DNA of 64,000 nt from Psococerastis gibbosa. Its lineage: Eukaryota > Arthropoda > Insecta > Psocodea > Psocidae. This document shows, piece by piece, positions 7,314 to 38,648 of this stretch. The stretch is taken from the NCBI GenBank assembly GCA_963971405.1, contig OZ020489.1, forward strand, positions 16,084,290 through 16,148,289. The letters are read 5' to 3'. Numbering within the stretch: the stretch's first letter is position 1; each line of letters starts with the position of its first letter. Made by a program: the position numbers and the translations under genes. The notes under the pieces were generated by a model that searched no databases, was not told where the DNA came from, and saw nothing but the letters and a program-made list of their open reading frames with translations.

Positions 7314-7629
7314 TTAAAGCCATCCGGTAATAATTTCTCCAGTAACAGTTGATCTGCCACCTGGTTTCATGGGTGTAATAGGCCGTTTTGGCTCCTCCTT
7401 CTTCTCGCTCAGTTTTTCATCTTTCTTCTCGCTTTTTTCAGCCTTCTGTTCTTCTTTTTCCATCTTTTCTTCTTCTTCCTTTGGTTTGACTACGTCTTTT
7501 TCTGGTTTAGAGGCAGCTTGATCTTGAGTGTCACTTGCGGACGGTTTTTCTGGGGACTCTGGCATACTTGGTGGCTCAGGAGTCGGTGTAGCATCCTCTC
7601 TTGGGTCTTCCGGAATCGGGGTCCTAGAC
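7314..7629 (-). CDS. trp: trp exon 18 (residues 1075-1179, C-terminus with INAD-binding motif)
   Basis: Acceptor TTCTCAG|GTCTAG; stop TAA at 7316-7314. It encodes a Pro/Glu/Lys-rich tail (residues about 1090-1160, many KEE and EKK runs) and ends [17 protein letters not shown]. Fly TRP ends in the same pattern, STVTG followed by ISGWL, which binds PDZ domains of the scaffold INAD and holds the channel in the rhabdomere. The charged tail parallels the long KP-rich tail of fly TRP but is shorter. Confidence 0.95.
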
Positions 7630-10600
7630 CTGAGAAAAGATCATATGTCAGCATGCATTAGTGAACTAAAAACAGCATACTGTAGTCAGAGGGACAGGAG
7701 CTCAAAGTTCAAATATAGTTGCTTATCACTAAAAAAAAATTATTTTTTAGCAACGGTTTCGCACTAAGTCATTCATTTTCAGGCTACAGACTCTGTTTTT
7801 GTAGCCTAGTGCCAAAACCGGACGCCCTTATGATAACATTTAAAAAAATGGTAATCAACTTGACAGTATTGCTTGTTTTTATTTAGTCTTAATTAGTTTT
7901 CTAATTATTGTAGGCAGTTTTGTAGTAGTATTTGAGGAAATGCAAATGCATTCATTCAGCTTTTTTTTTTTAAACGAAAAATCACTGACTTCACGGAATA
8001 AAAATTTGTTCTCTATGAACTGTATCCGGATGTAAAGTTTGGATTAGATAGGGGTGAAATCTTCAAGTATAAATTAAATACAAGTTGCATAATTCCAATT
8101 CCAATTCGGTTGTAGCCTAGCCTATACCTTGTAGCTTGGCTATGATACCTGTGGGCGATGATATATCACTGGGGCAGGTATGACAATGGCAAAGCTGCGT
8201 ATGTGCATTATAAAGAACCTGTGGGGCTATCTTCCATTAGATGCAGAATCTTATACCACCACTTTAAGCGCACCATACATAGAATAGTCAATGGCGCTAC
8301 CATGCATTGGCAGATGGCAGATGACAGATACATTTCAATCAATGGTGGGACCGGCCTTAACGCCGTTCCCATTACCGCTTGAAAAGTCTCGGTCAGGAAT
8401 ACTGCACGGCACCACCATGCACAGTATATCATTCGGATAATACAGTTACTATAGTTATATTTTCTGGTCATGCTTCGGAGGACATGTAAAGCAGGTGGTC
8501 TCGGGCTTTCCTAGTTAAGTTTAAGAGAGGGCTTTATAGCCCTAACTCCGCTGGGTTGGCTTAGTAGTAGAACAAAAAAAGTCATTATTTATTTATATAT
8601 TTATTTCAAGCGATGGTGGTACCAGGTCCAAAAGCTAATAATCCTCAATAGATACCTGCTTATGGTCGTAACAGGTCATGGTAGAGAAATAACTGCCTTG
8701 CACCCACCTCAGACTCATGTGAACTGACTCTATAGGTCTTCCCAGCAAACTGAACCCCGAGAATTTAATCCTATTTGCAAACGGGGCAGACAGGTCACAT
8801 GGGAAACTCTGTCCCATTCACGCTATTGCTCGCGTGACTAGGATGACATCGCTTACAATATATCTGTTGTTTTCTCAAAATGTCGAGATACATGGGCGTT
8901 AGAGCTATTTTCTCAACTGAAATGGATACTGGGAATTTCGAAAACTCGATAACTTTGACAGTTTCGGTCCGAGTAATCTGAAATTTGAAACACTGATAGC
9001 TGAGCGCTGTTCCAGATTGGACATTAGATTAGGGGAAGAGTAAGAATAATTTTGGCCTTTTTACACAGCAGTAACAGTGCTGCGAAAATATAATTAAATA
9101 AATAAAATAAATAAATAACCATATTTTTGCAAATCGACGTAAAGGTCCCAATCTTACACAAAAAACTTTAAGTAGGTACAATAATTTATTTATTGTAAAT
9201 TCCAAAACTAATGAGTTTCAGTTGGTAGTCATAACTACTCATAATAAGAACGTCAATAGTAAAAAATTAATTTGAAACTACAACTTGGACTGGGTGAGGA
9301 GATGGTTTAAAATTAATTATTTAAAATATTAATTATTTAAAATATTAATTATTTAAAATATTAATTAAAATATTGTACGTGTTTCGCATCCATATACGAT
9401 CGAGTACATAATATCAATTAAGACAAGGGCCGTGAGGTGACTATTTTTTATTTTTATAGCATGAGAAAAGACTTATAAAAATGTTCTAGTGTACTTCAAT
9501 ACTGCATTACAGCAGGCTGATCATGGCGATTATAATACCGGGGTTTAAATAATCCCTGGTATTAAAAATGTAAACAAGATACTTTTATAATGGAAAGTGC
9601 TATTCAAAATTTGTTTGTTTTAATACTAGGTTATTATTTAAACCCCGGTATAATAATCGCCATGATCTGGTACATGTTATCAATTATGAAATTTCCCTAT
9701 CGGCCAGAACCAAAAGGCATTCCTTTAGTTATTTCATTTAATTCAGAATATAGGTAAAATTTAACAATCAGAATGAGTCAGATTTGCTAATATTTGATAC
9801 ATATTGTAGGAATCATTTTCAACGTTTAACTATTATACCGTATAGGTAGTGTAACCTGTAATCTGTGAATTTCTATATCTAAAAGTGGAGAGTCGTGTGG
9901 GGATATTAAATTATTTCTATTTCTATTATTAGGTATGGCACACTCGTGCTCGTGGCGTTATGGCAATTCTATTGCATCCTAGTGTATAGTCCACGCAAAA
10001 TGAGAAAAGTATGGACACGGAATTGCACAATTTTTGTTATGCCTTGCATCCAACAAGGTGCAAAGAATATTTTTTATTAGTGTTGCGCAGGATCAAAACA
10101 CTCCATGTCCATACTTTTCTCATTTTGCGTGGACTATACCTACCTATACAACCATTTTATAGCCCACTAAATGTAAAAATGTTCTATTTAATGAACTTGG
10201 CCTGTATTTACCACTGTTGCTTCTTTTTTTTGACTCAATTTACCGTTAAATTATGGATAGTTGCTGAAGTTCTCATTAATTAGTGCAGCTATCTGTCGGA
10301 ATTACTTTTAATCTATCTTCCTAATTTCTAAGATTTTTTTTTTGTACAATAATTGCTAGTGATCTACCTGAAATCATGCTTTTCGGGTGGTGGTGACGGA
10401 GCCTTATGTTTAATGGACGGTACCCTGGTACTTTGGTACACTTCATTCACGGTTGTAACGCTGGGGCTGTTGTCGCCGGGGCTGTTGTCGCCGACGAAGC
10501 GCACACTGGACGTGCGGCTAGACGGCGCAGTGATGGGTGGTGTTATGTCGGCTAGGGAGCGAGTGCTGCGGGGCCGAGGTCGAGCAATCGGTGGAGGCAA

Positions 10601-13600
10601 CGAGAGAGAGTCACTTCGCGATGCAGAATTTGAGTCCTGAAAACCAGACATTGTCTGCAATCTAATTAAATAAAAAATTAAAAGTGGTTAAATTTGGGGG
10701 TGCCAAAAAGTAGCCTGCCTAAGCTATTTTAAAATATTGCATTGAGCTAAGAACCAGTATAGGTACAAGGCATTCTACCTAATTCTGCTGTTTAGGTACG
10801 CATCATTCTGTTCTCACTTACCGGTTGCGGCTCCTGCCTCTGTCAGTATAAAAACATCAATTTGACAATCAAACAGAATTTTCTTCAGCTCGCTGAACTT
10901 AGATGGGCTCAGTCCGCCTGCGCTCCAAAAAATAATATTATAACTACGTGATCTCTGCCTGATAAGGGCGTCGTTTGCAGGGCCCTGAGAAGGGCCGGTT
11001 CTTCTTTATCAAGGTTGTGGCACGGTCAAAAGACGAAGAATTTTAGTTCATTTAGCATCACCCAGGGTACACCGCTTGGAGGCGAACTACACTGTACCCC
11101 CTGGGGTGGTGGACTCACCATTGTGCCCCCTGTGTTTTACATCTGAAGGAACAGCAGAACATCTCGCAACCTGCGACGGCCTTAAGGACGTCATCTGCGA
11201 GGCAACTTTGGAGGGACGAGCTTTTTTATACTGGGCGGCACGGCGTCGGATGGCCGGAAGGCCACGTACGGGCGTTGGCTGAAGTAAGGAAGTAAGTGTT
11301 CTCACTCACCGGTTTTCCCACTGTGAAAACATCGTCATCCCCTGAGGAGGCAGTAGGCATACCCTTTCCACTGGCTGAAGAGTCAGTTCTGATTCCCTTA
11401 TCAACCTGGTCGAATTCTTGTATAATTTTCGGCATCTTGAATTTAGCATAGGCAATACGGGTAGCTGGAGTAACTTCGGAAAGCTTTGGATTGTATTCCA
11501 GAAGTCGGTCGGGGTCGATCGATTGCAACTGCTGATTTTTCTCAATGATATACCTATAATGAAATTCATAATACGAATTAAAGGACTATAGTCTATATAC
11601 AATCGAGAATCACCATGCAATAATTGGTCCATGCACATCACATCATACATAGGCTAATCCATGAAAGATGAAATTCAAATTTGGGTGACTTTGCCGAAGA
11701 ATGCAATGTTTCATTACCGTACAACAATAACAAGTACGGTATTATATACACCATATGTACCGTATATTTGCCACCATAAATACCACAACAATATTGACGG
11801 TTCGGCACGCACGAGCTGCTGGCGTTTATTTTCATTGCGGCAAATGCGTAGTAGTAGAAAATCACTTATGATTCAACTTCAGAAAATTTCGGAGTTTCGG
11901 CAAGAAGCCGACTGCACACTGGTGCACGGGATTTTCCCTCAACACGCCCGCAGAACAAGCGTCAACTTCAATAATCTTCTGCAGTTGTCTCTGCAGTTTC
12001 CAAACTACCCATTTTGCTACAAATGAAAAAAAACGTCCGCAACTCGCGGGTTCCGAATCATCCGTGATCATACAAATCGTACAAAATAGAATATAATTCC
12101 CTTTGCACACGGACAATTCTCGCAGTCGCGATTTGCCGACGTCTTTTCCATTATAGCCATAGCATTTTTTGTAATTTCGGAAGCTAGCGTGAAGCCAACC
12201 GCACGCAAGTGCGCGGTTTTCTCCTAGAAACGCCCGATCATAGAAATCTTCCTAATACACACAGTATGCTATTGTACACTCAGTGAGATTGCATCGATCA
12301 TTCACGACCTATTCCTACAATGATAAAAGACGTCGGCAAATCGCGGCTGCGAGAATTGTCCGTGTGAACCGGGCGTTTATAGTACGTATTAGACTATTAG
12401 GATAACTTGAAATATACTTACCTTCGTATACTCTGTTTTGACCTTCTCTCCCTTAAGTCGTCACCACGACCAATTGGATCAGTCCTTTTGGTACTTTTTC
12501 GAACAATGGCATTCCAATCCTTCTTCTTAGACGAAGTAGCGCTGCTCTTCCTTCCGATGGCACTAGCTATCCTACTGAAGACATCCTTTGGTTCCTTTTC
12601 ACTCTTGATGACGTCCTGAACAATGCCTTCGACAATACCAATCTGGAAGTCTTTGATTAGGCGTCGCTCCATAACTTTTCCTTTTTTGGACACTGAAACA
12701 ATAAAGCGATTGATTGTTAGGTATTGTCTTCCTGAAATTAAAGGAAGTTTAAAATTGTGTATGAATTTTCATTGGGTGCGGTAACAATTTAAGAACGAAA
12801 TTTTATTTTTTATTTTATTCAACATTATTTTGTACTACATTTTGTTCATAGGAAAGCTAATCACCCTTTGAGGGTGTAAGTAAGAAGTTTGTTGATGATC
12901 TTTCTTCAGTGTTCATTTTGGGTTGTAATGGTGTCAATATGCCACGTGTTCCCCACTAGGGTTGGGTGGACCCATGCTTGGAGGAAAATGTTTCCTTTCC
13001 ATGTCGATTCTGGAACTGGAGTTTTTTCACTTCACGGTCCAGTCTCTATACCAAATGGAGTAAAAGCGTTACAGAATCCTGATTGGGTATCGATAGTTTT
13101 CTTCCCATTTCTATAATTATTTTAATTTACCTTATCTCCAAAGTATGTGACAACATTGATTGTCCTTAAGAGGGAAAAGGAATAAGTATAAAAAATATAT
13201 GTATATATATTTAATATAACTTTCGATTTATTTATCCTCCAAATATTCGTCTATTATGCTCAACGATAATATAATAGAATAAATGGCGTGAAACCATAAA
13301 CTAAATATTGACGATAGCGGTGAAATGTAGAGGGAAATGTCAATAGAAATGGCAAAGAAAATGACAAAGGAAGTGTTTCTTGGTTGTAGGATTCCTACAC
13401 CAATTATTAAAGAAAATATAGTGGCCAATGAAAAACAAATGAACAGTTCAACATCCGGCGCAGTATGTTACTGCGCACTTAACTTTGCAATAGAAATAGC
13501 TTAATTGTTGCTTTCCAATTTATACGTAGCCTAGTATAAGGAAAGCTTTGTGATGGTCGAAATTTCCGATTCCGAGATTTCAACGGAATTACACGTTTTG

Positions 13601-16600
13601 AGGTCCAGGAACTCAAAAAAGTGTTTTTTACGAAATGTCTGTCTGTATGTCTGTCTGTCTGTCTGTTCACTACTTCCGGGCAAACTACTCGGTCGATTTT
13701 GATGAAATTTTGCATGTAGGTTCACAAAAATCATGCCTCGAGACCATTTTTTTTTATTTGGGGCTAACTCAATTTTATTCTCAAAAAACTCCAAAAAAAA
13801 CGTTTAAAAAAATTATTTCCCAAAAACGGCTCCAATGATTTCTTTTAAATTCACATATATTGTAGTTGTTATTAACGTTGATAATATGCGGGGGGTCGCT
13901 TGCCCCTTGATAGTTTGCTTCTGGAGGTAAAAAAATAAAAATAACTAAATTTTCATGAAAAATGACTAAAAAATAATTTTTCTGCGAAACCTTTTTATCG
14001 ATGATTTTTACTTTCAGGCATGTTCTAGGTGTTAAATTGAGTAACGAAACCGGACAGGTTGCTTTCCCAAAAAACTATTTGGTTTGTGCAAAAAAAAATG
14101 TTTTTGAAAAAATGAAAATTCACGCTCAAATGCATTGCGTGCCTTGCCATTATTGCTGTGTGGTTATGTAATGTAATGTCTGACCTATGAAGACTTTATT
14201 TCACCTCCAGTGACGTCAGGTCACATTTACCATTAAAGTACTCATTTTCTCTATCTACTAATTGATAAATTGGAAAGCATGTTCGAGTAAACTCGGACCG
14301 GTTCTTTTGATTGCATTAGGCTTGTGGCGAGAACCACCAGCTTACACGAGGAAACTACCGCGGAATCGTTGATTGACTGAACTGTGGAAGCCCATCCAGC
14401 CATGGACCGATTCATTAGCCCATTTTGGGGGGGGGGGGTAGTTGGGGGTCAAAATAGAAGAAACATATATGAAGTATCGATTAAATAAGAGCGTAATAAA
14501 TTAACTTACAATAGATTTACTCAATTTTGGGGGGGGGGGGCAGTTCCCCCCTGTATCCGTCTATGCATCCAGCCCACATGATCATACTGTACCTACCTGC
14601 ACTGTTATCTTGGTTGAGTTGCGGCGTCTTCATCCCGTTATTTCGCAAAATATCAACCAGTTCGTAACGCAAAGTTGAGATGTCTTGTCTGATTTCCATG
14701 ACGTCGTCTTCTGTAATACCGTAATCATCGCGTTTGGTCTGCTCTGCAGTCACATAGCGTCTCACTAACAATTTCATCGTGTGGTCATGCCTTTGTTGGG
14801 CCTTTACTTTGCACTTGATCTACAATATTAAGTCTATAGTCAAATTCTTAATCAATGAAAAGGTGTATAGTGTACACTTATGTTATTATATAATATAGTA
14901 ATTCGCTCTTATGGAAAATAAAGACAATTTTCTTTCTTTCTTTCTTACTAGGCATACTATGAAATATTCATAATTTTTAAATTAGGAAATTTTCTGTTTT
15001 CGTAAAATTGGCTATTTTAGTTATGAATGTTTTTTAAAGTGTCCCGATTTTATACATTTTTTTGTTTTAGAACCAAGCGAGATCAAGGATTTTTGGCTAA
15101 ATTTATTATTTTTTGAATGCACGGCAAAACTATTTAAGAATAGTCTTGTGAAGACTTCATATAAAATTCAAATTTTCTCTAAATACGCAGACTCTAACAC
15201 GTGGACTTATGCTTTGCTATGAAATCTTTATAATGCATCTTATCGTGTTTCTTTAGAGTATTAGCCTGCTATTTCCGATGAGTAAATTTTCTGCGAAAGC
15301 TTTTTTTTAAGTCTTCAAAAGACTATTCTAATCAGTTTGTGGCTGAGGATCAAGGTGTTAAAAAAACTTAGAAGCAAATTGGAAAGTTCTCCCTTACATT
15401 TTTAAAGGTAGACTAATTTAAAATCTTTGATCTGCTGAATGGCTCCCCATCGCCGACGCCAAAAAAAAAAAAAAAAAAAAATCTTTGATACTACGTACCT
15501 TTGTAGATGCAGTCCTCATTTTAGCCATGTCTCGACAGCCAAACCAATTGCGGAAATTTTTTAGAGTGGGCATAAGATTGAAAGGGGCAGGCAATGTACT
15601 TCCTTCATCAAAGTAGCTGATCCATAGTTTACTGCGAGCAAATTTCCATTCCACATCAGATCGTTCCTTTAAAAATTATGGCACAAAAATGAAGGCCAGT
15701 CCAAGCAAGGGGGACAAAACTCGGCAACATGATTGCATAATGGAGAGAAGTTATGCCATTGCCTAACTTAATTACTAAAGCACGGGCATGAATAATGCAA
15801 TTAATGCGATACTTGAAGGGTTTCCCACATTATGAAGGACACAGATCTGCCGATGATACCAAATAGATCCAGCAGCCCTATTATGGCGATTTGGGATTAA
15901 CGTAACACCGGGGGTTATTATTCAAGTGTTTTAAACAAATGAATGCAAAATGCGCGGTAAATTTAAGTTGATAAATTAATCCTCGGCTGTATTTTTGGTG
16001 AGTTTTCAATTTTTTTCTCCCATAGATGTATAGACATTTTAATTAGAACTTAAATTCATATTATATTTCACAATTCTATCTGTACATTTTAATGTTTAAT
16101 TAGTATTTCCTTCAATTGTAAAACAATGCAATCATTCGCGTTTATTCCAATCATTTATTAATTTGAATTTCCAGCGCATATTTGAACAGCGCCACGTGAC
16201 ACCTTACTACTGCGGTATTTAAAAAAAAAAACGGTAGTATATAAACCCTGGTGTTAGGTTAATCCCAAATCGCTGTAATAGGGCATCTACAATCCCTGTT
16301 GAAATATATGCCGCATGCCTTGCCTATTGTTCAATTTTATGGAATTACGGTAGTGGAAGTATGGGCAGGTAACGTACAGTACTGATCTTCGTTCTTAAAT
16401 AGAGGGAAATATGTCAACAACGCGTTGTTGACCAAAATGGGATCACTTGCTATTTGCAATGTGCAGCTACCTATATACTAATATGATGTAGCTCGAAACC
16501 ACCTACTCACTTTATCCCATAAGTGCACTGTAACGTTATATAGTCGTTACAGAATCAGCCCAAGAGAAAAAAAAATAAAGCCTTCCTAGAAACGTCTCTA

Positions 16601-19600
16601 CAATTTTAATTTATAATACAATTTGTACAACTCTAGGTCTATTCTACAATAAATAGCATATTTTGACTACGATTCTAAAAGAGTACACACATGCGCTCAA
16701 CCAGTAGTTGATGCTGGGAGGCAATATTCCGCTTTTTTTTCTGCAGTGTGGAATGAAACTGACAGAAAGAACCTCCATAATTTTTTTTATTTTCTTTTTG
16801 GTAAGGAAGTTCTTTGCTGAACTGAGGCTTCATGCCGAGTCATTGATAATCCTATTAAATCTATGATTATAGGCTATGTTTCAGTGCAACTTTATCAGCA
16901 AATGTCGGCTCCAGTGGCAGGAGGGTAGCGAGTCTCTACACACCTTACGGATTGGAGATGTGTCGTAACTCGACACTTGTAACCATTAGGTTACATAGTA
17001 AGGCGACTGAAAAGATCAATCGGATTCGGATATATTCATTAAATTGTTCGTGTACAATTAACTTTTTGTTTAAACAAATTACAATAACTGCATCATTTGA
17101 ATTTTTTCAATAATATAGGCCTTTATAGTGCAATGTTCCGTAGCAGGATCCGCTGGTTCCAATGTTCCGTGGCAGGTTCAATTCATTAATATTTTTTGAA
17201 GCTAAAGGGAAGTGTGCTTGTAGTGTGGTATGAATAAAATGTGCTGTAACTCTATACATACATAACAATATAGCATGTGTTAAAACAATCCAGGTGTAGT
17301 GTCGGAGGAGCAATTTTTACAGCTGATCAGGGAAGTAAAAAATTTTAAAACAATACCGAGATAATTTGGAAAGAATTTGACATCATAGCAATCAGCATGT
17401 TCAAGAGAACAATTATGTTGATCACGGAATATGACCCAAACAGCAGTAAGGCCCAAAATCGTGTGAAACTTTTGATTCCTTTTAGATCAAAAGATGTGAG
17501 ATCCACCATTCCAAAAGAAGCCCAAAATAAGCTTTGAGACGCTTCAAAAAGACTGTAAGCAAGAATAAGTTTACCTGGATAATTTCATAGGAGCTGGACA
17601 TCATAGCAATGAGCATGTTTAAGAGTACGATGATATTTATTACGGAGTATGAACCAAACATCAGCAGAGCCCAAAATCTAGTAAAACTCTTGATACCTTC
17701 CAAATCAAAGGAAGTTAAGTCGACTAAGCCAAAAGAAGCCCAAAAAAGAGACTGCGAAGTTTCAAAAAGACTAAAATTAAAGAAAATTAGGAAATACAAA
17801 ATACAAAAGGATTTTAGGAGGGTTCTGAAGTTTTTATAGCACATCCATACCCTATTTCAAAATTTGTAGACAATTATCACCATAAAAAATATTAGAAACC
17901 AAAAAAGTAAATACCTTCCCCCTAATTACACACTCAAACTATTGTTCCAATATTAGATCCAATAAATATGGGCCTAAGAAAAATTGGAAAGTGTAGCCAA
18001 ATATCTAAATTCAGATTCAAATCGTATACTTCGATATAAACATTCCAAATATCGAATAGGCCTAGTAATTAATCTATAATAATTTATAATAATCTAAAAT
18101 ATATACGGTTATATAATCGATAGTCTAATTCTAAACGGCATAGTAGGTAGTCCCGCTGATAGCAGTTAGCCAAACCACGCAAACTCACTTCTAACCGGAT
18201 TTGAAAAAAAAGTTAATTTGCTACCAGTATGGGAAACTTACTTGGCAAATCTTCGCCACACTGTGCAAGCTTTTTCGTTGCCATCGAAATCGGGTACGTC
18301 AGGATCACTGAGAACGTAACACTTAGTTTTCTCTAAGTCAGCATAGTACCACATGAGCTGGTTCATTCCACAGCCAAATGCAAACAGCACTAGCGTGTAT
18401 ATGAAGAAAAATTTAATGATGTCGATTATCATTCGTCCCAATGAGATCTGAAGGGGCCCGAGATGAGGATTTACACTGAATATGTGAACTAGCTTCAGAA
18501 AACTGAAACAAATAATACAAGATTTCATCAAATGAGCTAGACCAGTTCAAAATGGAATTAAGGTAGGTAGGGGCGGCGCTTACACCCAATAGGTACCTGA
18601 ATTCAAGTGCCTTAAACTAGGCAACTTTATTGTGAAAGACCTCCAAATACGGACAGAGTTTTGCATGAAAATTACTAACTACTGTACTAACAATAGGTAC
18701 TGTACAGTATATTGGCACGAAAACTTACAGAACAATTATACAATTAAATATTGCTATGGAATACACTCGCTTCAGTTTCAGAGCAAAACGCAGTACACAA
18801 AATGTATAGCGAAATAACATTTTTAACGTACGGTAACTATAGACCTATTACTATATGCAATAGGTAACTCATCAGAAAGAATGCATTCAAGCAATCAATT
18901 CATTCAGTATTGTGAGACTTGCAATGGTAAGACCTATGACTATTTCAAAATTAAACCCATTCGTGGTTATTTGTAACATTCTGTTACAGAATAATGGAAC
19001 TAGAGAAGCTCATCAAACGTACGCTAGAGGACATTTGCTACCCAAACTCGAAAGAATGTCAAATACCTGTTAGATCAAAAGAAAATTTGTTGATGTATTG
19101 TATTACTCCAGTAGCCTAATTAATTAATTAATGTTTTCCCCATTTATTGACTATTATGAAGTAAAAAAGTAGCCTAGACTTCTTAACAAACAGAAACAAC
19201 ACTTTAAAGATTCGCTTTCAAATTATAGCCTGGTTATACTGGTATGTAATCATTTTTGAGATGAACTTTAAAACTAAACGAATAAGTTGTCTTTCATTGT
19301 AAGTGACAATCGTAGGGGTAAAACCCTTATAAGTGTAAAAATCAAATATTTCATGAATAATCAATATTAGAGTTGTCTTAAATAATCAGAGAAAAAAATT
19401 GGTTAATGGTGTACGTAGCCTACCTCACTCTAACTCAGATTCACCTTAATTATTGTATTTGGTTTGTATGAAAAGCTATTGGCCTGGTAGTCCCGAGAAA
19501 AAGAAGAAGAAGGTGGAAGAACCTAACACCAAACATCCAGGAAAAAATAGCGCCCGGAGCCTAACTGTTGTACCCTGCATGGCGGAGCCTCAATGGGCTA

Positions 19601-22600
19601 AGAATGGGGGTTACAAGATGCCGCGCGAACTTGTGTAGGTGGGGACTGGCGGAGGACCCGACTTGCGAGTACAGACAACTGCAGGACGACGGACACCTTC
19701 TGGTCTGCCCGAGATTGGGAGAAGCTGATTCCCAGACGCCAACGACAAGGCCATCCACGCCGCAACGCTTTGGATCAACGTGTCCAACACATTAAGTAAG
19801 TCCCGAGAAATGAGTTCAAGAACTGATTTCTGTTAATGTCTCAGGTTGATTCAAGTTACAGGCAATTGAAAATTAAACACGTTACAAAACCGCAATCCTC
19901 ACCTAAATATCATGCCGGCAGCAAATGCTCCTTCAGAAAGGAGCATGGGATCGAATGGGTGCCATTTCTCTCGCGGATAGTACGGATCTAACCCAGACCA
20001 TTCTTCTCTCTGGAAACAAATTGGTCCAAACGGTTAATAATACCATTGAGCTACATAGTATAAACGTAGCCTACAGTAGATTTCCATCGTTTACTAGCAT
20101 AGAATAAATATTTACTAGTATGGCGGCTATTCCACTTGTCAATTTTTTTTTTCAATTTTGATAATGTCACTGTCGGAAAATCATCATTGTTGCATTTATA
20201 CACCTAATTTCACTTGTCTTCAATAATTGACCATTTTTGTTTTCAATTTTTTCCAATGTTGTAAGTTTACGGCGGGTCTTTCTTTTAATTTTATACAAGA
20301 AATTTTATGATCTAAATTATGAAGTAATTCATTTTGTCTCAAGAAATTATTTACAATTATTTATCATATCCAGACGACGCCAATGTTTAATTTTAGTTTG
20401 TTATTGTTTGCAAAGCGTGATTTTACTCTATGATTGTTGATCAATTTTAACATGCGGAAATTAAATGGACAATGACATAGAGTACCGAATAAAATCTCAT
20501 CAATTATTGAAGAAAAATTGACAAGTGGAATAGCCGGCTTAGTGATACTTCTATATATAGAAGAGGGATATTTAGATCATTTATAAAGATCTAATTAACT
20601 CGGCGTTCCGCTTCTGCAAGTTTTCGAAGAAGGAAAATTCCAGATGTCATCCTATCGTGGTCCGGTAGTACTGTATATTATGTAAGTAAAGTACTCATAG
20701 TTACCTTGACGATAAAGATGGCGGTAAAGCGCAATGAAATCCACATAATATAAAAACAGTTGGTTATAAAATCAACGATGTTCCATAGATCAGCAATGTA
20801 ATCCAGCAGACCGTCACTCCATAATGATTTCACTTCGTTGAATACATAACCTGCGAATCACCCAACCTAATTGAAATGGTTGCATTTTAATATGGTAAGT
20901 TCTTTATTAAATTTTCTCGAACAGAATACAGTAGGCTTAAATATATACTATGTATATATAATTATATATAATTATTGACCCGTACAATGAAAGAAATTTG
21001 ACTGACTATGATTCACAAAGAATATGATATGACCTTTTCTGAATGGAGGCCAAGACGCTACAATGGTTCGGCTACCATCAAAGAATGGGTGAAGAAAGGA
21101 TCACCGAAGATCGAGGACAACATTCGAAGAAAGAGTAGGGGGAAAACAATGGCTCAAGGCAATGACAACCAACTGGGTAGAGTATAAGAAATGGACCCGG
21201 GGTAACCCCCTCACGTTGCACGCTGATGAATCTAGAGAAGTTGAAGAAGAAGAAGAAGAATAAGTGTAGAAGACGATGATGATAATGACGATGATGAAGG
21301 AGACTTTTTCTAATGTATAAAAGGCTAGAAAGATACTTACTGAAAATATAAATTATTAATGAGCATTCCACTACACCTGGAAAAGAGCCACGTTCCCTTC
21401 GTTTCCAGTCGATTAACATTTCTTGCATCCAGTCTGGACCAAACCATTCCACGGCTAAATATTCAGCTCTTTGGGAAGCCAACCCAAGAAGTGCTGAAAT
21501 TAATTCAGTATACCATTCAGTTGGAACCAAACCTCATTGTTTTATTAATAAATGAATTTATGAATGATGCAGAACGCCTCATGAGCAAGTTTATTGAAGA
21601 TCTGAAATTGATGGTGTAGTAATGAAATTATGCAAACATATCGACTTCGATGGCCAGGTGGTAACGTGCTTGCACTTGTGCGAGTCGTTACACGCCATGC
21701 AATCGGAGACGTGTCGTACTCATCACGGGTAATAACCTACAGAGGCGACTGAAAAGGTCAATCGGATACATTCATTAAATTGTTTGTATGCGGTTTATCT
21801 ATATTTAAAAAAATATATATATAAGTTCTATAAATATCTAAATTTACGGAAAGTTGTACCTAACTTATTTGGTCGGCTAGTTAGGCCTAGCACTTTTAAG
21901 CGAAACCCCTCACATTATTTATAATCCATTCTCTTCGCAATAAAGTTACATAATACGTTTATGTAACATACCTGTTATGTTTGTATTTAAAATTTAACAA
22001 AAAATTACAGAGGGAATGTACAGTCAAAACTAGGCAATTCACTTACATAGAAAAAACATATATGAAGAAGAATGAAGAATAAACTTGACAAATGGCTTCT
22101 TCATGAATAAACCTTGCGGTGATTTGGGGGCCATCATGTAGATTGTACTGTACACAGGGAACATGCAGGCCAGCCTCCCGACTTCAAACAACTGGCGAAC
22201 CATATTTTTTCTGCGGAATCCAGGAAGGCCGTCGTACCATATTGCGGCCAAGAGCTGTTGAACGTTTGGGTGTGCCACAAACTGGAGCAATGAAATGTGA
22301 ATTATACGCAATCACGCACTATGACATACTATAGCATCCGGGTGTAGAAAAGTGACTTGAGAGGCTCTGTAGCAAGGGTGTCCTTCCCTACCCCCTTCCT
22401 TTAAAAAGTGGGAGCAACTGAATATTTGGGGTCAACGCGGCCATCCTTGCTAACTGTCTCAAAGATAACCGGGAAAGAATATTGCCAATAATACATCATA
22501 GGCTAAGTGATGATTAATTTGCTCAATGTAACCCGTAACAATGTAACGAAGTAACCCGCAAACGCTCCTATAGAGAGCAGGTTTTATTTTTAATTACGCC

Positions 22601-24408
22601 ATAGCATTATGCTTCAATCATCAGCGTTCTTGCAGCCCGATACAACACCTATGGTGAACTTCTGCTATTGACGAGAGCAGGGCACGTCTTAAGGTATTTT
22701 CTGTCCATTTTTTCCCGGGTGTCGTAGGAGGTGTTGGCACCAATGAAATTGATAATTAATTTACCCAAAAATGGTCTCAAAGGAACCCGCAGTAGTAGAT
22801 ATATTGTACCTATAGATCAGGAGGTGTTTGCACCAATGACAAGAAGGTTTACAATAGTACTGTATACTTTTTTACTTATGTGTGGTTTCTAAAGTATGCC
22901 TCCTCGACGGAGGCTTAAAGGGGACACAGGCAAAAGTTTGATTTAAAAAAATTGTGTGTTTAAAACGAATATAGAAAAATACTCAAGTTTCTTAACCGCT
23001 GCACTAAGGAGATAATATTATGTAGACAAGTGAGTAATGTATGATAACGTGGGGAATCAGGCCCAAAATGGCAATGTGGATTTACACAATGGTCATTAGG
23101 CCGGTGATTACCTATGGAAGTGTAGTTTGGTGGACCAAGACTACACAGGTCACAGTGACAACCAAGTTGAATGGGCTCCAGAGGCTGGCCTGCCTCTGTA
23201 TCACAGGAGCAATGTCAACTTCACCAGGGGATGTCCTGAATACTTTATTGAACCTGCCAACCCTGGGAGTCTTCATTGAAGCACAGGCCAGGATGGGCGC
23301 CTATAGATTGGAGCTGGAAGGCTGCTGGAGAAGCAAAAGGTCAGGCCACTCCAATATTACTAAAAGCATATCGGAAGACACGCTTTTAATGCCGTCAGAC
23401 CGAATGACACCCCTGCTCTCATTCAGCAAACCATTTAACACTAGAATTCCAGCTAGAAAAGAATGGAATGCTGAAGAACATCAAACAGGGGACAATGACC
23501 TAGTCTGGTATACAGATGGGTCGAAAATGGAAAATGGGGCTGGAGGAGGAGTCTATGGGGAAACTGTAGACAAATCCATAGTCCTAAGCCTCGGCAAATA
23601 TGCTACAGTCTTTCAGGCTGAGGTAGGGGCCATTATAAAATGCCTAGAGGAGTGTATGGAAATGGAAAGCAAGGGCAAAACCATTATTATCTATACAGAC
23701 TCGCAGGCAGCGATTAAGGCTGTGGAGGCTATAAAGATCACATCAAAAATGGTGTGGCACTGCATCAACCTCCTAATAAAGGTGTGTCGGGAAAACTCAG
23801 TCTCGCTGATTTGGGTCCCGGCTCACTCGAACTTTGATGGGAATGAAAGAGCCGACGAGCTGGCTCGAAAAGGTGCAGAAACGCCATTCATTGGTGCAGA
23901 ACCTAAGTATGGGATGGCTTATTGCCAGGCCCGTACTTCTGTACAAAAATGGGTGCAGAGAAAAACTGCAGAGGAATGGAAGAAAGTCCCGGAAAGCAGA
24001 TTTGCTAAGAAGGTTATTCCGGGTCCTAGTAAAAAGCTCACCGATCAGCTTCTCTCTTTAAGTAGAGAGCAAGCTAGAAGGGTGGTTGGCACGCTTACGG
24101 GCCACGGCCACTTCAACAAACACATGCATAGGGTTGGCGTGAAAAACGACAGTAGATGCAGACTGTGTGAAGTTGAAGAAGAAACAGCTGAACACATTCT
24201 CTTTGAATGTGAAGCGCTGGGAAAAACTCGATACCAAACTCTTGGCCACCCTAGGTCTGAAGAGGAAACCATCCGATCTAATCCCATCACAAAAACACTA
24301 GAATTTATCAAAAAGACTGGTGTTATAAGATGGGCGTAGACGGCAAACGTGGAAGCAAAAGACCTTCTAGGTCGACGCTTATAGGAACTCAAACGAGTAG
24401 GCCCCACG

Positions 24409-24444
<36 letters not shown>

Positions 24445-27400
24445 TATGATAAAGTACCAATGGTTCTTACCCTTTTCTGCTTATATCGTATTGCCAGCTT
24501 CAATCTCTCCAGTGTTTGTCTATCTCCTGGTTCCCAAATATCGCCCTCCAGATTGAAATTAAGCATTACATCCAGTTCTTCAGAAGTTCTCGCATGGTCA
24601 AGCAATGCAGTTGCAAAATCCTGAGTTCCTTGGCGCATTTCCTGTGAAATTATAAAATGAAGGGAAAGGAAATACATTAGGCTATTATGAAGAGCATTCA
24701 TCAGTTATCGAGTTATTCCTGGTTAAGTGTGTTAAGTCGAGTTATGTTAACACTCGTAATAATATTTAGTCCAGGTCGAACAAAAATAGCATATTGGTCA
24801 CGGGGTCGTTGAAGGATAAGGTTCATCCCGTCCACCCTCGGTCTATTTAACACTCGCAGACACGGAAAACTGATAGATACCGCTAATAATGAATAACCTA
24901 TATATGAAACCTTAGCGAAACAATTTACTAAGCCGTGATAATATATATTTACGACAGCCAACGGCCTTGCCATGTTGAATCCATGAGACCATGATTCAAA
25001 CTGCGGCTAACTTGGTAGTGTGCACAGCGTTGGCAGGGGAACATGGTGGGACATTAAAATACGCTGAGACTATACCAGTCAGTATTGGTCACCTCCGATT
25101 TCATCGTGTGACATTACCATGTTCACCAAGTGGCTCAGAATCCGCTATAATCAGGAGGTCCACCCTGTCAGCCAACTCCCCTTTCCCCCGAGGTGAACGA
25201 GTCTGCCCTTAGGGTGCCTCAAGTTAACAAACGGACTCACTCCCCCCGCCAGGCTGACAGGGTTGCTTAAAACAGAAATGCTGAAACAACAACAACATAC
25301 TTGTATGTATTTACAATACTATATTATTAATTGGTGTGGCAAACCTTATATTCAGCTCGAAATTCTGTTTCACAAAAGCTCAAACGTCGCAGCTCCCATG
25401 ACAATTCAAACGCTGTCAGTAGCGGATCTCGAGAAGATAAGGCGATAAGGGACGAGGACGAGAGGGCTCGGTAAGCATTAATTCGTGACTGGGAGTGTCG
25501 CAGGGAGTCTGTTTGAGATGAGAGAATGCATTCGTCGCAGCCACATCTGTGAAAAACAACACAACAACTTGAAGAGACAATCAGAGCAGAGCAGAAGAAG
25601 CCTTATACGTGTGAAAAAATCCAATATCATTTGAAAATACACAATAGTCCTCTTAGTAACTTTGTAAAACTTCCTGTCACTCATTGTGAAAAAATTACTT
25701 TGTAAAGTTTTACGTTATAAAGTAAAAAATAAAAATTCGGTTTCGGCTCACGCCGTCGTCAAGTGTAAGAAAACAGTAAAAATCAAGCGGTATGCAAGAT
25801 AAAACGCACATATACAGGTACCAATAGTAAACAATAATTAAACATTTCAAAATGGTAGCCCCAACAAGTGAGAGCTATACCTCAAAAGGATTATGTCATT
25901 AAGCAAAGTTTATTTTCTTTTCAACAATAGCTTCTCTAATCTCAATAGTTTCTAAATTATCAAGAAGTTTTACCTCGTTTGCTGCAATCTTAAAATTATC
26001 GAAGTCACAGGAATGGCTGTATCTTATTACACCTCGACGATTCCGGCTCACGCCATCGTCAAGGTGTGTTTTTTCTTTTATAACGTAAAACGTAAGTAAT
26101 TTTTTCACAGTGAGTATCATATGAAGGATTCATTAGTCAGGATTAGCATATCCTATATAAATAATATAAATATATAAATAATGTTGTTGATATCCTTTTA
26201 TGAAAAATAATGTTGTTGATATCCTTTTAGGAAAAATAATGTTGTTGATAACCTTTTAGGAAAAATAATGTTGTTGATATCCTTTTATGAAAAATAATGT
26301 TGTTGATATCCTTTTAGGAAAAATAATGTTGTTGATATCCTTTTATGAAAAATAATGTTGTTGATATCCTTTTAGGAAAAATAATTTTGTTGATATCTTT
26401 TTAGGAAAAATAATGTTGTTGATATCCTTTTAGGAAAAATAATTTTGTTGATATCCTTTTAGGAAAAATAATGTTGTTGATATCCTTTTATGAAAAATAA
26501 TGTTGTTCGGCGTGTTGCAAGTACCTACTACTTGAACAATATGTTGGTTTCGAATGCCTACCTATTCTATTGTATTTCGCTCTCAAAATGTGTAATATGA
26601 ACAAGTCTATATAAGAGTTTATGAACTATTGTAGTATTGTAAATGTACGAGGCAAAATAACTAGATTGATTGGCGAATCAGTGACAAACAATTGGTTTAC
26701 CGGGCAACCTCCTCACTTTTCAGGGCATTATACACGTATATTCGAAAATGGGAATCGAGAAAAATCTGAAAAATGAGGGGTTGGAACCCAAGAACGATGT
26801 CTTTTGGGGGAACCGTATGGTAACACAAGGCATAGTTTTTTTTTAGATTCATTGCCCAGATTTTTCTCGCATCCCTATTTTCGGCTATAATTTTTCTTCT
26901 TGTCTTTATTATGAAATTTACGGACTGCCTAACAGTATCACTGAGGAATTAAAATTGAAGGAAAAGAAGGGTAACACGCAACGGTGTTATTTTGATTCAT
27001 AACTCATATGGCTGAAAGGGATGAAACAGTGTACAAAAGAAATAAGAAGAGGCTAATCTTTTACTGCTGTAATAACTCATGGCTTAAAGTTTTATCACCC
27101 TGCTGATCCACACATGAGCAGCTTGGCAACATAGCTGCTTTAATATAGAGATTTACAATAACAGTATATTATATAACCCAGCTTTAAAATTCTTTAGCTG
27201 ATGGTTTCGCTGAAGTCTTATATTGCTTTAAAAGTGAAAAAAGAAAAGAAAAAGACAAGAAATATATTTACCATACAATACAAAATGAAATTAATTATAC
27301 AACAAACCCACTAGGAATTTAACAATTTTCCTACTAAATATATATATATGTATCGTATAAATTCCTCCGTGGGCACATCAATCAAAACCTATGAAAGGTT

Positions 27401-30400
27401 TGTGTGATTGAAATTGTGATGTTTTAACATAAGAATTATCCTTTTACTTTTACTTTTAGGGCGAGCGCGACCGAAATTACCGAGTTACCAGAATCCGGAC
27501 GCGGTCGCCCTAAAAATTGTTTTCTTTTATTGTTGTAAATAGAAATATTTTTATATAACTTAAGTAATAATAATAAATTTTGAAAAGTGCTTATATTATA
27601 GGCTGTAATAGGCCATAAAACTAGGTTCGGAAGGATTCCTGCGGATCAAAAAATCACTAATTAAAATACTATTAAGCATTCAATATTAATTGCAAGTTGT
27701 TTCTGAAAAGTTTTGATTGTCTTAAATATACCTACATTAAAATTCAGTCAAATGCCAATATTGTATGTTATCGTATGTTATCATATTTGACAACATTTTA
27801 CAGGTACAGGGTACCTACTTAACTTTGTATAAAGTCTCTACAGTTTTTTAACACAGCACAGTGCTCATATGGTACGTTAGACACGCTTGCACCAGCTACA
27901 CAACCATCTAACCGAACAGGTCTTTGCGCTTACTTTATAGCATAAAGGCAATGCTTTATGGAATATATTGTAGCATTATATAATGCTACAATATACTGTA
28001 TAAAGGTATATACTGTATAAAGGGTATTTATTTATGTATAAGCTCACCTGACATCGTGTGGTGTTGGAAGGGTAGCACCTCGATCTAGAAGAATTTTTAA
28101 AATCTCGTAGTTGTTCATGTGGGCAGCTAAAATAAGCGGTGTTATATCTGTGGTAAAGGCGGACGAAGCTCGATCAACTGCTTCCCAGCTCTAAAACATT
28201 TAACAAAAGACATACAGTATACTGTATGGTATTGGTGATTTTATATCAGCTGTAGGATGGTACCTACCACTCTGTCACGGTATTAAAGAACCGGTCCGAG
28301 TTTACTCGAACATGCTTTCCAATTTATCAAAATTAGTAGATAGAGAAAATGAGTAATTTCAAGGTAAATAATTTTCCTATGGTTAAATTTCCGATATCTC
28401 GGGGGGGGGGGGGGGTTGTCCATCTAACGTCACAGGACGTGAGGTAAATTATAGATAGGTCAGATCAACACATTACCACACAGCCAGACAGCCAGACATT
28501 TAGTAAAAACCACTTTTTTTGGTTCCTGGGACCTCAAAACGTGTAATTCCGTTGAAGTCTCGGAATCGAAAATTTGGACAGTCACAAAGCCTTCCTTATA
28601 TTACGTATAAATTAGAAATTAAAAAACGTAACTTCACTTTTGGGGTAGATATATGGAGTTTTTGGTATCGTTGGAATCGATACACTTCCAGTGATCCAAA
28701 TTTGGCGGAAGAAATTCATTTCTGTATACATTTCATGAGAGAGGAAAATGTGAAATTATGACTGCAAACTTTTTTTTACCATAACCAGACTGTTGGGAAA
28801 GAATGCTCTTAAGTATATAAGCAAACCAATCAACAAACGCTCCATATAATAGCCTAGACTCTTGGGCGCACCCCCCACCCCTAATTACAGCAGATATGCT
28901 GTATGAAAGTTGACCAATAATTGTAAAAATGCATACATTACCGAAAATAATCCCTTTTTCGTCCAAATTGCACAATTTAAAAGAACCGTTCCAAATTTAC
29001 TCGAACATGCTTTTCAATTCATCAACATTAGTAGATAGAGGAAATGAGTAGTTTCGTGGTAAATAATTTTCCTATGGTTAGCTTTCCGATATCTCTGGGG
29101 GGGGGGGGGGGATTGTCCACCTGACGTCACTGGAGGTGAGATAAATTCGTGAGATAAATTCTAGATAGGTCAGACCAACACATTATCAAACAGCAATAAT
29201 GGAAGGACATGCAATGCATTTGAGCGCGAATTTTCTATCATTTTTTCAAAAAATAATTTTTTGCACAAAACCAAATAGTTTTTTGGGAAAGCAACCTGTC
29301 CGGTTTCGTTACTCAATTTACCACCTAAAACATGCCTGAAGGTAGAAATCATCGATAGAAAGGTTTCACAGAAAAATTATTTTTTAGTCATTTTTCATTA
29401 AAATTTAGTTATTTTTATTTTTTTTACCCCCAGAAGCAAACTATGAAGGGGCAAGCGACCCCCCGCATTTTGTCAATATTAATAACGGCTACAACATATG
29501 TGAATTTAAAAGAAATCATTGAGCCGTTTTGGAGAAATAATTTTTTTAGACGTTTTTTGGAGTATATCTTGTTTGTAACACTTTTAATCTCAGGTTAATG
29601 TTAAAAATAATCCACAAAAGAAAATCCTGAAGGTCATGCACAAAAGAACCACAGTTATTTCCATCTGAAGAGCTATTTAAAATAGCAAACGTTCCAACCA
29701 TCAGAAACACGTTCATTAGAGAAGCCATAACACAACTGTTCAAACACAGACATCTACACTCTGAAGTGACCCATGGCCACAGTACACGATACAGAGAAAG
29801 CAGACCTTTATATAGTGAGACCCCTAGAACTAAAAAAATTCAAAGCACTGCACAATACATTGCACTCACACTCTACAACAGTCTACCAAAAGGAATAAAA
29901 GAAATCTCAAATATGAGGTTGTTTATCGTTGAAAGTGCCACAGAACATCTAAAAGTGAAATAAAATAACGTATAGAGCAGAAAAGAAACTATACCCTACT
30001 ACAATACATAGAAAACCATAAAACGCCCTTACCAACCCAATTTGACCCTATTAACTAATAACTACTAACTAACTAATAACTGCAATAACTGCATGCATTA
30101 ATTAATAATCATGAACTTACCCTACTAACCTACTAATAAATATTGATGAAAACAAAAATTGTTATATTGTATATCATATATACATGACATCATGCATTGG
30201 ATTGTTTCGCCATATCGTCTCTATGAAAAACCACGCACGACAGCTGTGGTAAAATCCAATTTAACTTGTACAAATATTTTTGAGACAAATAAATAAATTG
30301 AATTGAATTGAATCGCTATAGTAGGCCCACTGACCCACCTAAAACATCCTAAAACTTGAACTTCCAAGTGGCCTAGCAGGCTCATTTTAACACTATCTAC

Positions 30401-33400
30401 AAGTCTACAACAGCAGCCTGATCGAGGCGATTGTAATACCGGTATTTATTTAATCCCCTGGTATTAAAAATGTAAACAAGATAATTTTATAATGGAAAGA
30501 GCTATTCAAAATTTGTTTATTTACAGTTATAATCCTAGGGTATTTATTTAACCCCAGTATTATAATCGCCTCGATCAGGCTGCAGGTGAATGAATGAAAG
30601 AATCGTTTATTTACCATGACTAAAAAACAATATACAGTATAAAAAAGACCAGTTTTGTCCTATGGGCTCCGCCCGTTTAAGGGGGAAAATTTTAACATAG
30701 ACAAGATGAACTGATTTAAAGCAACTTAACTTCATTGGAAGTGTTGTTTCCAACGGCTGCTTTCGGCATTTCTGCTTTAAGTAACCCTGTCAGCCTGACC
30801 TGACCTGTGAGTCTGTTTGTTAACTTGAGGCACCCTAAGGGCAGACTCTTCCACCTCGGGGTAAAGGGGAGTTGACTGACAGGGAGGACCTCATGACTAT
30901 AGTGGATTCCGAACCACTTGAGGAACATGGTAAAGTCACACGAATAAATCGGAGGTGACCAGGACTCGACACGCACGTAGACTGACTGGTATAGTCTAAG
31001 CGCGTTATCATGTCCCACCATGTTCCCCTGCCAGCGCTGTGGACACTACCAAGTTTGCAGCAGTTTGAGACATACTCTGCTCTCATGCATTCAACATGGT
31101 AAGGGTCTTCATTGGAAGTAAATAGCCTAAGGCGGGTATTCCACATACGTACATTGTCAATGAAAATTATGAAATTGAAGGACATTTCAATTTTACTCTA
31201 TGCCATTGTTAAAATTGATCATTGATCAATTGATCATAGAGTAAAATCACAAACTAAAATTAAAAAATGGCGTCATGGGATATGTCAAGTGTGTCAAGTA
31301 CAGTTATTTTAATTGATTTAAAAAAAAAAAAAAACAGTTTTCATCCATTAAACAGATCGGTGAAGGTCGATCTTACTTCGGATCTCCTACTATTATTAGG
31401 TTTTATTAAAAATAATAAGTGTACGAAGAAAACAAATACAAACAAAATTTCAAAAAACATATGCAAACAAATTTCAAAAATTTGGCGCATACGTTTCAAT
31501 AGAAAGTTGTCAATTTTTGAATAAACATGTGGAATGGCCGCCATCAATGAAAAATTGAAATGTCCTTCAATTTCATATTTTTCATTGACGATGTACGTAT
31601 GTGGAATACCCGCCTAAGTATGAATTTGGTATAGTATTGCAATGTATTGTATGGAGGTCCTTAATATGCTTGAATATGTTCAATGTTAGTCATCTGGTTA
31701 GCAAGTGGCATTGAGCTGAGAATTAAATAGTAAGTCCTTAGTTAAACGCGTTAGAGCACGGATCTCCCTGTCACACCTAAGATTAAGGAATCAAAGCGAA
31801 GTCGTATTTACTGTTCCTTGGGCCAGATAACCGCATCCTAGCTTTCCGTGTTTGATTCAGCGACCTGGGCCAGAGATATTGACAATCCAAGTCAACAATC
31901 CAGAGTTAAGTTTTGGAACTTAAATTAAATCAACCCCTCTGTCACTCGGATGATATCTTGCAACAATACCAAAAGTTATACTAAGACTATTTTGAATAAA
32001 TAATGACCTTTTGTTCTATTACTAAGTCAACCTAGCGGAGTTAGGGTTACACAGCATCTCTCTTCACACTCAACTAGGAAGGCTCGGGCCCTCCTGCTTT
32101 ACATGCCCGCCGAAACATGGCCAAAAAATTTAGTAAGTGTGGGAATCGAACCAACAGCCTTTCGGGTGAAAGTCAGAGTCCACACCGTACAAAGAACCGG
32201 TCCGAGTTTACTCGAACCTGCTTTCCAATTTATAAATTAGTAGATAGACATAATGTGTAATTTCATAGTAAATAATTTCCCTATGGTTAAATTTCAGATC
32301 CCTCAGGGGGGGGGGGGGGTCCATCTCTATATTAAAAACCCCTTAAAACTCAATTGCATATTCTGGGACAAACAGACTAATACATTGTAACAGTAGTAAC
32401 AATGATAGGACACGCAATGTATTGGAGCGTAAAGTTTCCATAATTTCTTCAGAAAATAATTTTTTGCACAGAACCAAATATTTTTTTTGGGAAAACAACC
32501 TGTTTATTTTTGTTACTCTATTGAACACCTAAAACATACCTGAGGGTAGAAATCATCGATAGAAAGGTTCCGTAGAAAAATTATATTTTAGTCATTTTTC
32601 ATGAAAATTGAGTTATTTTTATATTTTACCCCCAGAAGCAAACTATCGCCGGGCAAGCGACCCAATGCATTTTGTTAACATTAATAACGACTACAATATA
32701 TGTGAATTTAAAAGAAATCGTTGGAGCCGTTTTTGAGAAATAATTTATTTATACTTTTTTTTTAGTTTTTTGAGAATAAAACCCCCCAAAATTAAGTTAG
32801 CACAAAATAAAACTTTTTCTTGAGATATGATTTATGTGAACCTACATGCCAAATTTCATCAAAATCGACCGATTAGTTTTCCCGGAAATCGATGAACAGA
32901 CAGACAGGCAGACATTTCGTAAAAACCACTTTTTTGAGTTCCTAGGACCTCAAAACGTGTAAATCCGTTGAAATCTCGGAATCGAAAATTTCGACCATCG
33001 CAAAGCTTTTCACATACTACGTATAAACTGGAAAGCAATAAATAAACATACCCATACCATGCCACACACATTAAAAGTCATACGCTCTAGCATGAAGAAA
33101 ATAGGTCTCCAGAAAAACCCTACGAACTAATGCTGGCTGCCTTGCTAGGTGAGATCTGCTATACAACTTCACTATGCTGCCGTAGAATTTGCTTGCGTGC
33201 AGCGGACTTTGAATCTTTTAGTTCCAAACCAGACCTTAGGCCCGGTACACACGGACGTTCCACGCTGCCGGCGTGAGACACTGAGAAATTTATCATGTGA
33301 TCAAATGGGCTGGTGATAGGTTGGTGCAAAGAAAAATTAATTTCTGAGCGTACTTCCTAAGGTTTTGTGGCGTTGATGCGTGTTCCGGGCGTGTCTATGG

Positions 33401-37689: not shown

Positions 37690-38648
37690 TTAACCAAATC
37701 TAATGAAATTACTACCACCATTCCTTCTCTTATGCTGACTGAAGTAGCCCTCGGGATGTGAATAGTACAAGTATTCAGGTATAAGATATTCATCTGGTAC
37801 AATCCAATCTTGCGGCTGAGGCTGAAAATAACTTTCTAGATCAACATATCTCTTTTGAAGATCGGATTCTGAATCAATCCCAATTTGGTCCATAACTTCT
37901 ACGTCTCTTCGGGAGCGGTCATTTTCCACGTCCCAGAGGGTAGCTGGCTGAGTGTCCCTCTTGATGCGTATTATGGGTCCGTTTTTGGGCTTATCCGCTT
38001 GAAGATCAAGTCCTCCACTTTCTACCTCCACGTCGTCATCGTCAATTTTCTGATCTTCTGTATCTGCCTCGGGTTCACTCCTTCCAAATCGAAGGAAGCC
38101 AGATTCATTCTTCAATGCTGTTGCTAACTTCTTAGGAGAATCATAGAAGTCAGCAGCATTTAAGTCTTTATCCCCGTTAAGTCGACCAAATCTCATGAAA
38201 TTATCTTTACCTCTGCCAAAGCGCATAAAATTATCTTTTGCCCTACCAAATCTCATAAAATTGTCTTTGCCTCTGCCGAATCGCATGAAATCGTCTTTCC
38301 CTCTGCCAAAACGCATGAAACTATCTTTTGCTCTTCCAAAGCGCATAAAGTTGTCTTTTCCTCTAATGAGCCTTTTCAGCTCGTCAATTTTGTCTTTTCC
38401 AGGTAAAGCGTAAATTTCTTCCAATTGTTCATCTTCCGGCCGCTCAAATCGCATAAAGTTATCTCTGGCTGCTCGACTGACTCTCGCAAAGGACATGAGA
38501 TTCTTTTGATTTCGTTCAGGAGACTCGTCATGGAAGTAACGACCACTCCTTCCAAACCTTATGAAGTTTTTGTCCAGTGCACTTCTTCTTGAGAAGGGAT
38601 CTTTTGTTGATCGTTTGACCAATCCACTGCTCCCATGAATAGTGGCAT
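37690..38648 (-). CDS. FMRFa: FMRFamide precursor, peptide-coding exon
   Basis: Main exon of a secreted neuropeptide precursor. Acceptor CTTTCCAG|ATGCCA, phase 1, stop TAA 37692-37690. With the upstream exon the precursor is 352 aa. Amidation units X-F-x-R-F-G with basic cleavage sites: SALDKNFIRFGR, then a run of six (GKDNFMRFGR, AKDSFMRFGR, GKDDFMRFGR, GKDNFMRFGR, AKDNFMRFGR, GKDNFMRFGR), later LKNESGFLRFGR, and a terminal NGGSNFIRFG directly before the stop: nine amidatable peptides. One copy, ARDNFMRFER, has Glu in place of the amide-donating Gly. An acidic spacer lies between units. The peptides would be amidated and released from neurons or neurohaemal organs. Confidence 0.95.

Follow-up and report, generated by a model that had tools for sequence, protein, structure and literature searches.

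The phototransduction channel gene trp of Psococerastis gibbosa very probably carries two functional versions of its pore exon, 11a and 11b, which are predicted to be mutually exclusive and lie only 22 nt apart. Each mRNA would include one of the two, and the resulting channels would differ around the filter and at the inner S6 end, in 8 of 65 residues. The relevant features of the window, the whole stretch of 64,000 nt that was analyzed, are given below. Exon numbers are those of an earlier sequence-only reading; exons 3–6 of trp were not traced.

7314..35787, minus strand: trp gene from the probable first Met (MVGITESQ..., 35787; putative start) to the stop, by exon-wise reading and paralogue tblastn
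18242..18502, minus strand: exon 10, S5 and turret, common upstream exon with donor CAA/GTAAGT, by tblastn and alignment to PDB TRPgamma
17771..18241, minus strand: intron 10, 471 nt, with a branch-point-like CTAAT motif whose A lies 17 nt before exon 11a
17575..17770, minus strand: exon 11a, pore helix, filter, S6 and lower gate of TRP (LFETSQ...SSSYEIIQ), open in the exon 10/12 frame
17553..17574, minus strand: 22-nt spacer with the 11a donor, the 11b acceptor and a branch-point-like CTTAT (A at 17566), from the sequence and a yUnAy scan
17357..17552, minus strand: exon 11b, second copy of the same exon (LFEASQ...SNSFQIIS), open in the exon 10/12 frame
15667..17356, minus strand: intron after 11b, 1690 nt
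15499..15666, minus strand: exon 12, TRP domain, common downstream exon

Both copies measure 196 nt and have their own AG and GT splice sites. Exon 10 ends 2 nt into a codon that is completed by 11a and 11b alike, and both copies end on a codon boundary. Coordinates, lengths, phase and dinucleotides confirm what the sequence-only reading had proposed, namely two 196-nt pore/S6 copies with the same entry phase, a phase 0 exit and an acceptor and donor each. The 22-bp gap described there (17553–17574, GTAAAC...TTACAG) likewise agrees with the sequence, which reads GTAAACTTATTCTTGCTTACAG from 17574 to 17553. The copies are identical at 147 of 196 nt (75%) on the DNA level and at 57 of 65 residues on the protein level, with 33 of the 49 nt differences located at codon position 3. 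The repeated stretch comprises 201 nt with a start-to-start spacing of 218, and the likeness of the copies stops almost exactly at the exon borders. A search of the 409-Mb genome with the 414-nt stretch containing both copies returned one match, the stretch itself.

Open in-frame products are obtained by joining 10-11a-12 and 10-11b-12. A stop is reached in 10-11a-11b-12, in 10-11a-gap-11b-12 and in 10-12; the earlier expectation that joining 11a to 11b breaks the frame holds, and retention of the gap and skipping of both exons break it as well. Taken together, the two exons are homologous neighbours that agree in length, phase and reading frame and have GT-AG sites, as is typical of mutually exclusive tandem exons. 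Eight non-pore exon pieces (exons 2, 7, 8, 9, 10, 12, 13 and 14 of the sequence-only reading; exons 1, 3–6, 15, 16 and the last were left out) were used as queries for further tandem copies in trp, and each matched once between positions 7000 and 37000 of the window at E ≤ 0.05.

TRP is the founding member of its channel family. The 14-residue C-terminus of the product resembles the fly TRP tail. The stretch from pore to TRP domain (11b piece) matched TRPgamma best among PDB entries (9vqq, E 2e-87), followed by TRPC5 and TRPC4; 9vqq is taken to be an insect protein. Both isoform pieces matched PF00520, and the alignment to TRPC4 and TRPC5 shows that the exon 11 region spans pore, S6 and gate. 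Since TRPL-like and TRPgamma paralogues occur as distinct genes elsewhere, these matches and the C-terminal tail together point towards a TRPC-type gene that is most likely the classical trp, the names of the paralogues resting on likeness without a tree. About 2 kb upstream of trp, a precursor of FMRFamide-type neuropeptides with repeated FMRFGR units was observed (37693–38730, minus strand), which matches the Pfam family FARP (PF01581, E 1.2e-9).

The TRPL-like gene lies on the same contig and the same strand as trp (C14:16029459–16040695). Its furthest upstream exon found is located ~51 kb beyond the trp stop, so that the two TRPC genes are linked. The TRPgamma gene was found on another contig (C3), and the trp exon pieces match both paralogues one by one in tblastn. 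In both of them the homologous exon is single; its length (196 nt), borders and phase agree with those of the trp copies, and a search of 128,289 bases of C14 and 50,000 of C3 detected no second pore copy (E ≤ 0.01). Between the two trp copies 8 residues differ, compared to 17–20 between them and the paralogues, and the duplication therefore most likely arose in trp after the three genes had separated. On viral contigs 13 pattern matches were obtained, none of which was a relative.

Site counting for 11a versus 11b resulted in a pS of 0.835 and a pN of 0.089. Synonymous change is near saturation, and therefore no useful dS can be given. When 49 substitutions were placed at random with the transition share of the real pair (2000 trials), 30.5 ± 2.6 residues changed (minimum 22) and a stop arose in 78.5% of trials, compared to 8 changes and 0 stops in the real pair. 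Out of 65 residues, 11a and 11b differ from the TRPL-like protein at 19 and 17, from TRPgamma of the same genome at 17 and 20, from PDB TRPgamma at 18 and 20, and from PDB TRPC5 at 30 and 31 positions, respectively. Being similarly distant from these four outside sequences, neither copy, judged by its residues, is decaying. Selection appears to have kept both copies, on pairwise evidence that cannot prove present-day selection on both, and gene conversion could lead to an underestimate of their age or divergence.

The differences between the copies were located by alignment in TRPC4 numbering. Common to 11a and 11b are Gly 577, Asp 580, Ile 617 and Ser 621. In zebrafish TRPC4, G577 belongs to the filter, residue 580 lies above it, and I617 and N621 form the lower gate, as described in the part of that study consulted (PMC5951680). 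Asp621 of fly TRP is named as the major determinant of Ca2+ selectivity in a review, again consulted in part (PMC7565274), and judged by its place the Asp at 580 would correspond to this residue; in the filter of the TRPL-like protein, Gly stands where trp has Asp. The copies (11a/11b) differ at 567 (T/A) and, beside the filter Gly, at 578 (L/M). One further difference is found in the loop after the filter (587, E/K), one in early S6 (600, M/L) and four just past the gate (622, S/N; 624, Y/F; 625, E/Q; 628, Q/S). At 622, 625 and 628 it is 11a that is unlike all four outside sequences, at 567 and 600 it is 11b; as they depart at different positions, each copy has its own changes. M578, N622 and F624 are common to 11b and the TRPL-like gene, and at two positions at the end of S6 the N and Q of 11b are the residues of PDB TRPC5, from which 11a differs. 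Because the copies retain the Gly and Asp of the filter and the Ile of the gate and diverge next to the filter and at the inner S6 end, tuned gating, conductance, permeation or lipid sensitivity would be likelier than an altered Ca2+ selectivity.

With regard to splicing, U1 pairing was scored for 12 trp donors (exon 9 was left out). The donor of 11a, CAG/GTAAAC, reached −8.3 kcal/mol and ranked 5 among the 12; only 1.1% of the 3482 GTs on the minus strand of the window pair with U1 as well as this donor does. For the 11b donor, TCG/GTATTG, −4.4 kcal/mol was obtained, the weakest value of the 12, and its sequence has 4 of 9 consensus bases compared to 6 to 8 in the remaining trp donors. The U1 energy is a rough guide, as two other donors score low as well: −5.1 for exon 10, despite 8 of 9 consensus bases, and −4.9 for exon 8. 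The acceptor of 11a (...TTTTAG) has its CTAAT motif 17 nt upstream and pyrimidines at 13 of 17 positions, the acceptor of 11b (...TTACAG) at 11 of 17.

In the 60 nt before 11b, yUnAy motifs occur at −14 and −4 only. The latter is unusable, being too near the acceptor, which leaves the A at −14 as the sole candidate branch point in a usable position. This A is nt 9 of the spacer, beside the 11a donor with its six intronic bases; a branch point further back, as usual, would have to fall within exon 11a. Any branch point inside the 22-nt spacer, putative as it is, lies within the distance of about 50 nt below which donor and branch point exclude each other sterically. In human exon clusters, a donor-to-branch-point distance of <50 nt was the steric criterion for 57 (9%), according to the part of the source consulted (PMC5740500). 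For comparison, the four other trp introns measured have 471, about 530 (exon 1 to 2: 531), 679 and 1690 nt. In docking-site models of exclusion, a docking site forms long RNA pairings with one selector per exon. Pairing of this type, looked for between intron 10 and the opening 557 nt of the intron after 11b, scored −135.8, which does not exceed the −137.0 ± 8.3 of 60 mononucleotide shuffles. In the same downstream intron we observed a 44-nt inverted repeat (89%; 15875–15918 and 16241–16284, 322 nt between the arms) that resembles a small mobile element. The intron between exons 7 and 8 contains an open frame of 433 codons (23038–24339, plus strand) with likeness to the RNase H part of a non-LTR retrotransposon, a label given from its reading and not from a search.

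These observations suggest the following mechanism. U1 on the 11a donor (spacer nt 1–6) and SF1/U2 on the 11b branch point, which would be either CTTAT (spacer nt 6–10) or a site inside exon 11a, would occupy the same RNA, with the consequence that 11a and 11b could not be defined together. Transcripts escaping this exclusion would meet stops and be degraded. The steric exclusion that the sequence-only reading regarded as built in gains support from the frame and from a spacer below the limit of ~50 nt between donor and branch point, the splicing itself being a prediction. Owing to its better donor and acceptor, 11a would be the default, and 11b would rely on regulators. Tentatively, and with clearly less confidence than in the exon pair as such, the element may be read as a switch for the pore and gate of photoreceptor TRP: cells would choose by which side of the 22-nt element is occupied, Ca2+ selectivity would be kept while filter side and S6 gate differ, and the kinetics of the light response might be adapted to cell type or state.

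With its weak donor and cramped acceptor, 11b could be used seldom or never. It is unlikely that only one copy, presumably 11a, is used and that 11b is an unspliced relict of an old duplication or included at noise level. The U1 match of 11b, the weakest among the 12 trp donors scored, would fit such a relict, as would the fact that the 22 nt upstream of its acceptor start with a donor. With synonymous change near saturation, however, an unused copy should have gained stops and residue changes, yet 11b is free of stops and about as near to the outside sequences as 11a. Its N and Q at two positions of the S6 end, unlike the residues of 11a, even match PDB TRPC5.

Since all three products other than those with a single copy meet stops, the pair might also act mainly as an off-switch, in which skipping of both exons, or inclusion of both with the gap spliced out or retained, would yield stop-bearing mRNAs and lower the TRP level, pore choice being secondary. 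We consider this very improbable, as an off-switch has no need for a constrained second pore, 57 of whose 65 residues are kept. That the pair is an artefact of assembly or haplotypes can practically be dismissed: no support for it was found, although the genome note, in the part consulted, does record 20 haplotypic duplications removed by curators. A DNA divergence of 25%, the 22-nt spacing within a phase-correct gene, the single locus in the genome and an assembly QV of 60.4 (same source) speak against it, and the difference between a pS of 0.84 and a pN of 0.09 argues against an artefact and a decayed copy alike. Two functional, mutually exclusive pore exons are thus the preferred reading.

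Several known systems are comparable to the predicted exon pair; the sources were consulted in part, and the statements refer to those parts. In several phyla, the pore exons of NALCN occur as tandem mutually exclusive copies (PMC3557258). Similar to the trp pair, its exons 15a/15b and 31a/31b are tandem mutually exclusive P-loop exons of a cation channel that arose by duplication of an old exon, and exon 15 also covers the start of S6 (PMC3557258). In contrast, the choice of copy in NALCN exchanges a key residue of the filter (E/K) in one domain out of four (PMC3557258), whereas the trp copies keep the filter Gly and Asp and differ around them. Unlike NALCN, TRP is a four-subunit channel, in which the change would be present in all subunits of an isoform. 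In OGDH, exons 4a and 4b exclude each other through branch points too near to the upstream donor, as proposed here; the human branch points lie 25–41 nt from the donor in a longer intron (PMC7969005), whereas the trp spacer has 22 nt, with the candidate A 9 nt in or else a branch point inside 11a.

Among TRP channels, splicing changes the pore in TRPM3 alpha1/alpha2 too, there by an insertion into the pore loop and not by exchange of two homologous exons (PMC7959729). Drosophila TrpA1 is an insect TRP gene with mutually exclusive exons as well; it is of the TRPA type, its alternatives concern exon 1, at the amino terminus, and exon 10, and the opening of the abstract makes no mention of the pore (PMC11471635). 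In Pieris rapae, alternative splicing was described for the start exons of Pyx and TRPM and as a 9-nt change in the TRP domain of TRPgamma (PMC7143563), and in Bactrocera dorsalis exons 2/3 of TRPL are spliced alternatively (PMC6137742). A survey of locust TRP channels does not mention exon, isoform or mutually exclusive in the part consulted (PMC10379062). Among the literature matches listed, judged by titles, the starts of abstracts and some passages, with few subscription papers and no genome annotation, no TRPC gene with mutually exclusive pore exons was found. The sequence-only reading had known of mutually exclusive exons in other ion channel genes and of no pair covering the TRP pore; this stands for TRPC, with the qualification that a pore exon pair exists in NALCN. 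As far as seen in the literature searched, the principle of exclusion is established, and the gene, trp, and the very short spacer are new.

If true, one gene would give rise to two channels through the choice of a pore exon, and trp would join NALCN and TRPM3 as a further animal example of pores varied by splicing. The two pores would be equal in all else, and their eight evolved substitutions would represent a ready experiment on the tuning of TRPC pores. The 22-nt spacer would be a compact case for steric exclusion, in which lengthening should free double inclusion.

Elsewhere in the genome, a nearly complete copy of mitochondrial COX1 in two frames was observed on the nuclear chromosome that also carries trp (C14:11085363–11086704). 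In total, 42 COX1 matches occur outside the mitochondrial contig, many of them short or weak. The mitochondrial contig itself contains a tandem repeat array with repetitive open frames (L030:7720–8119), which probably lies in the control region.
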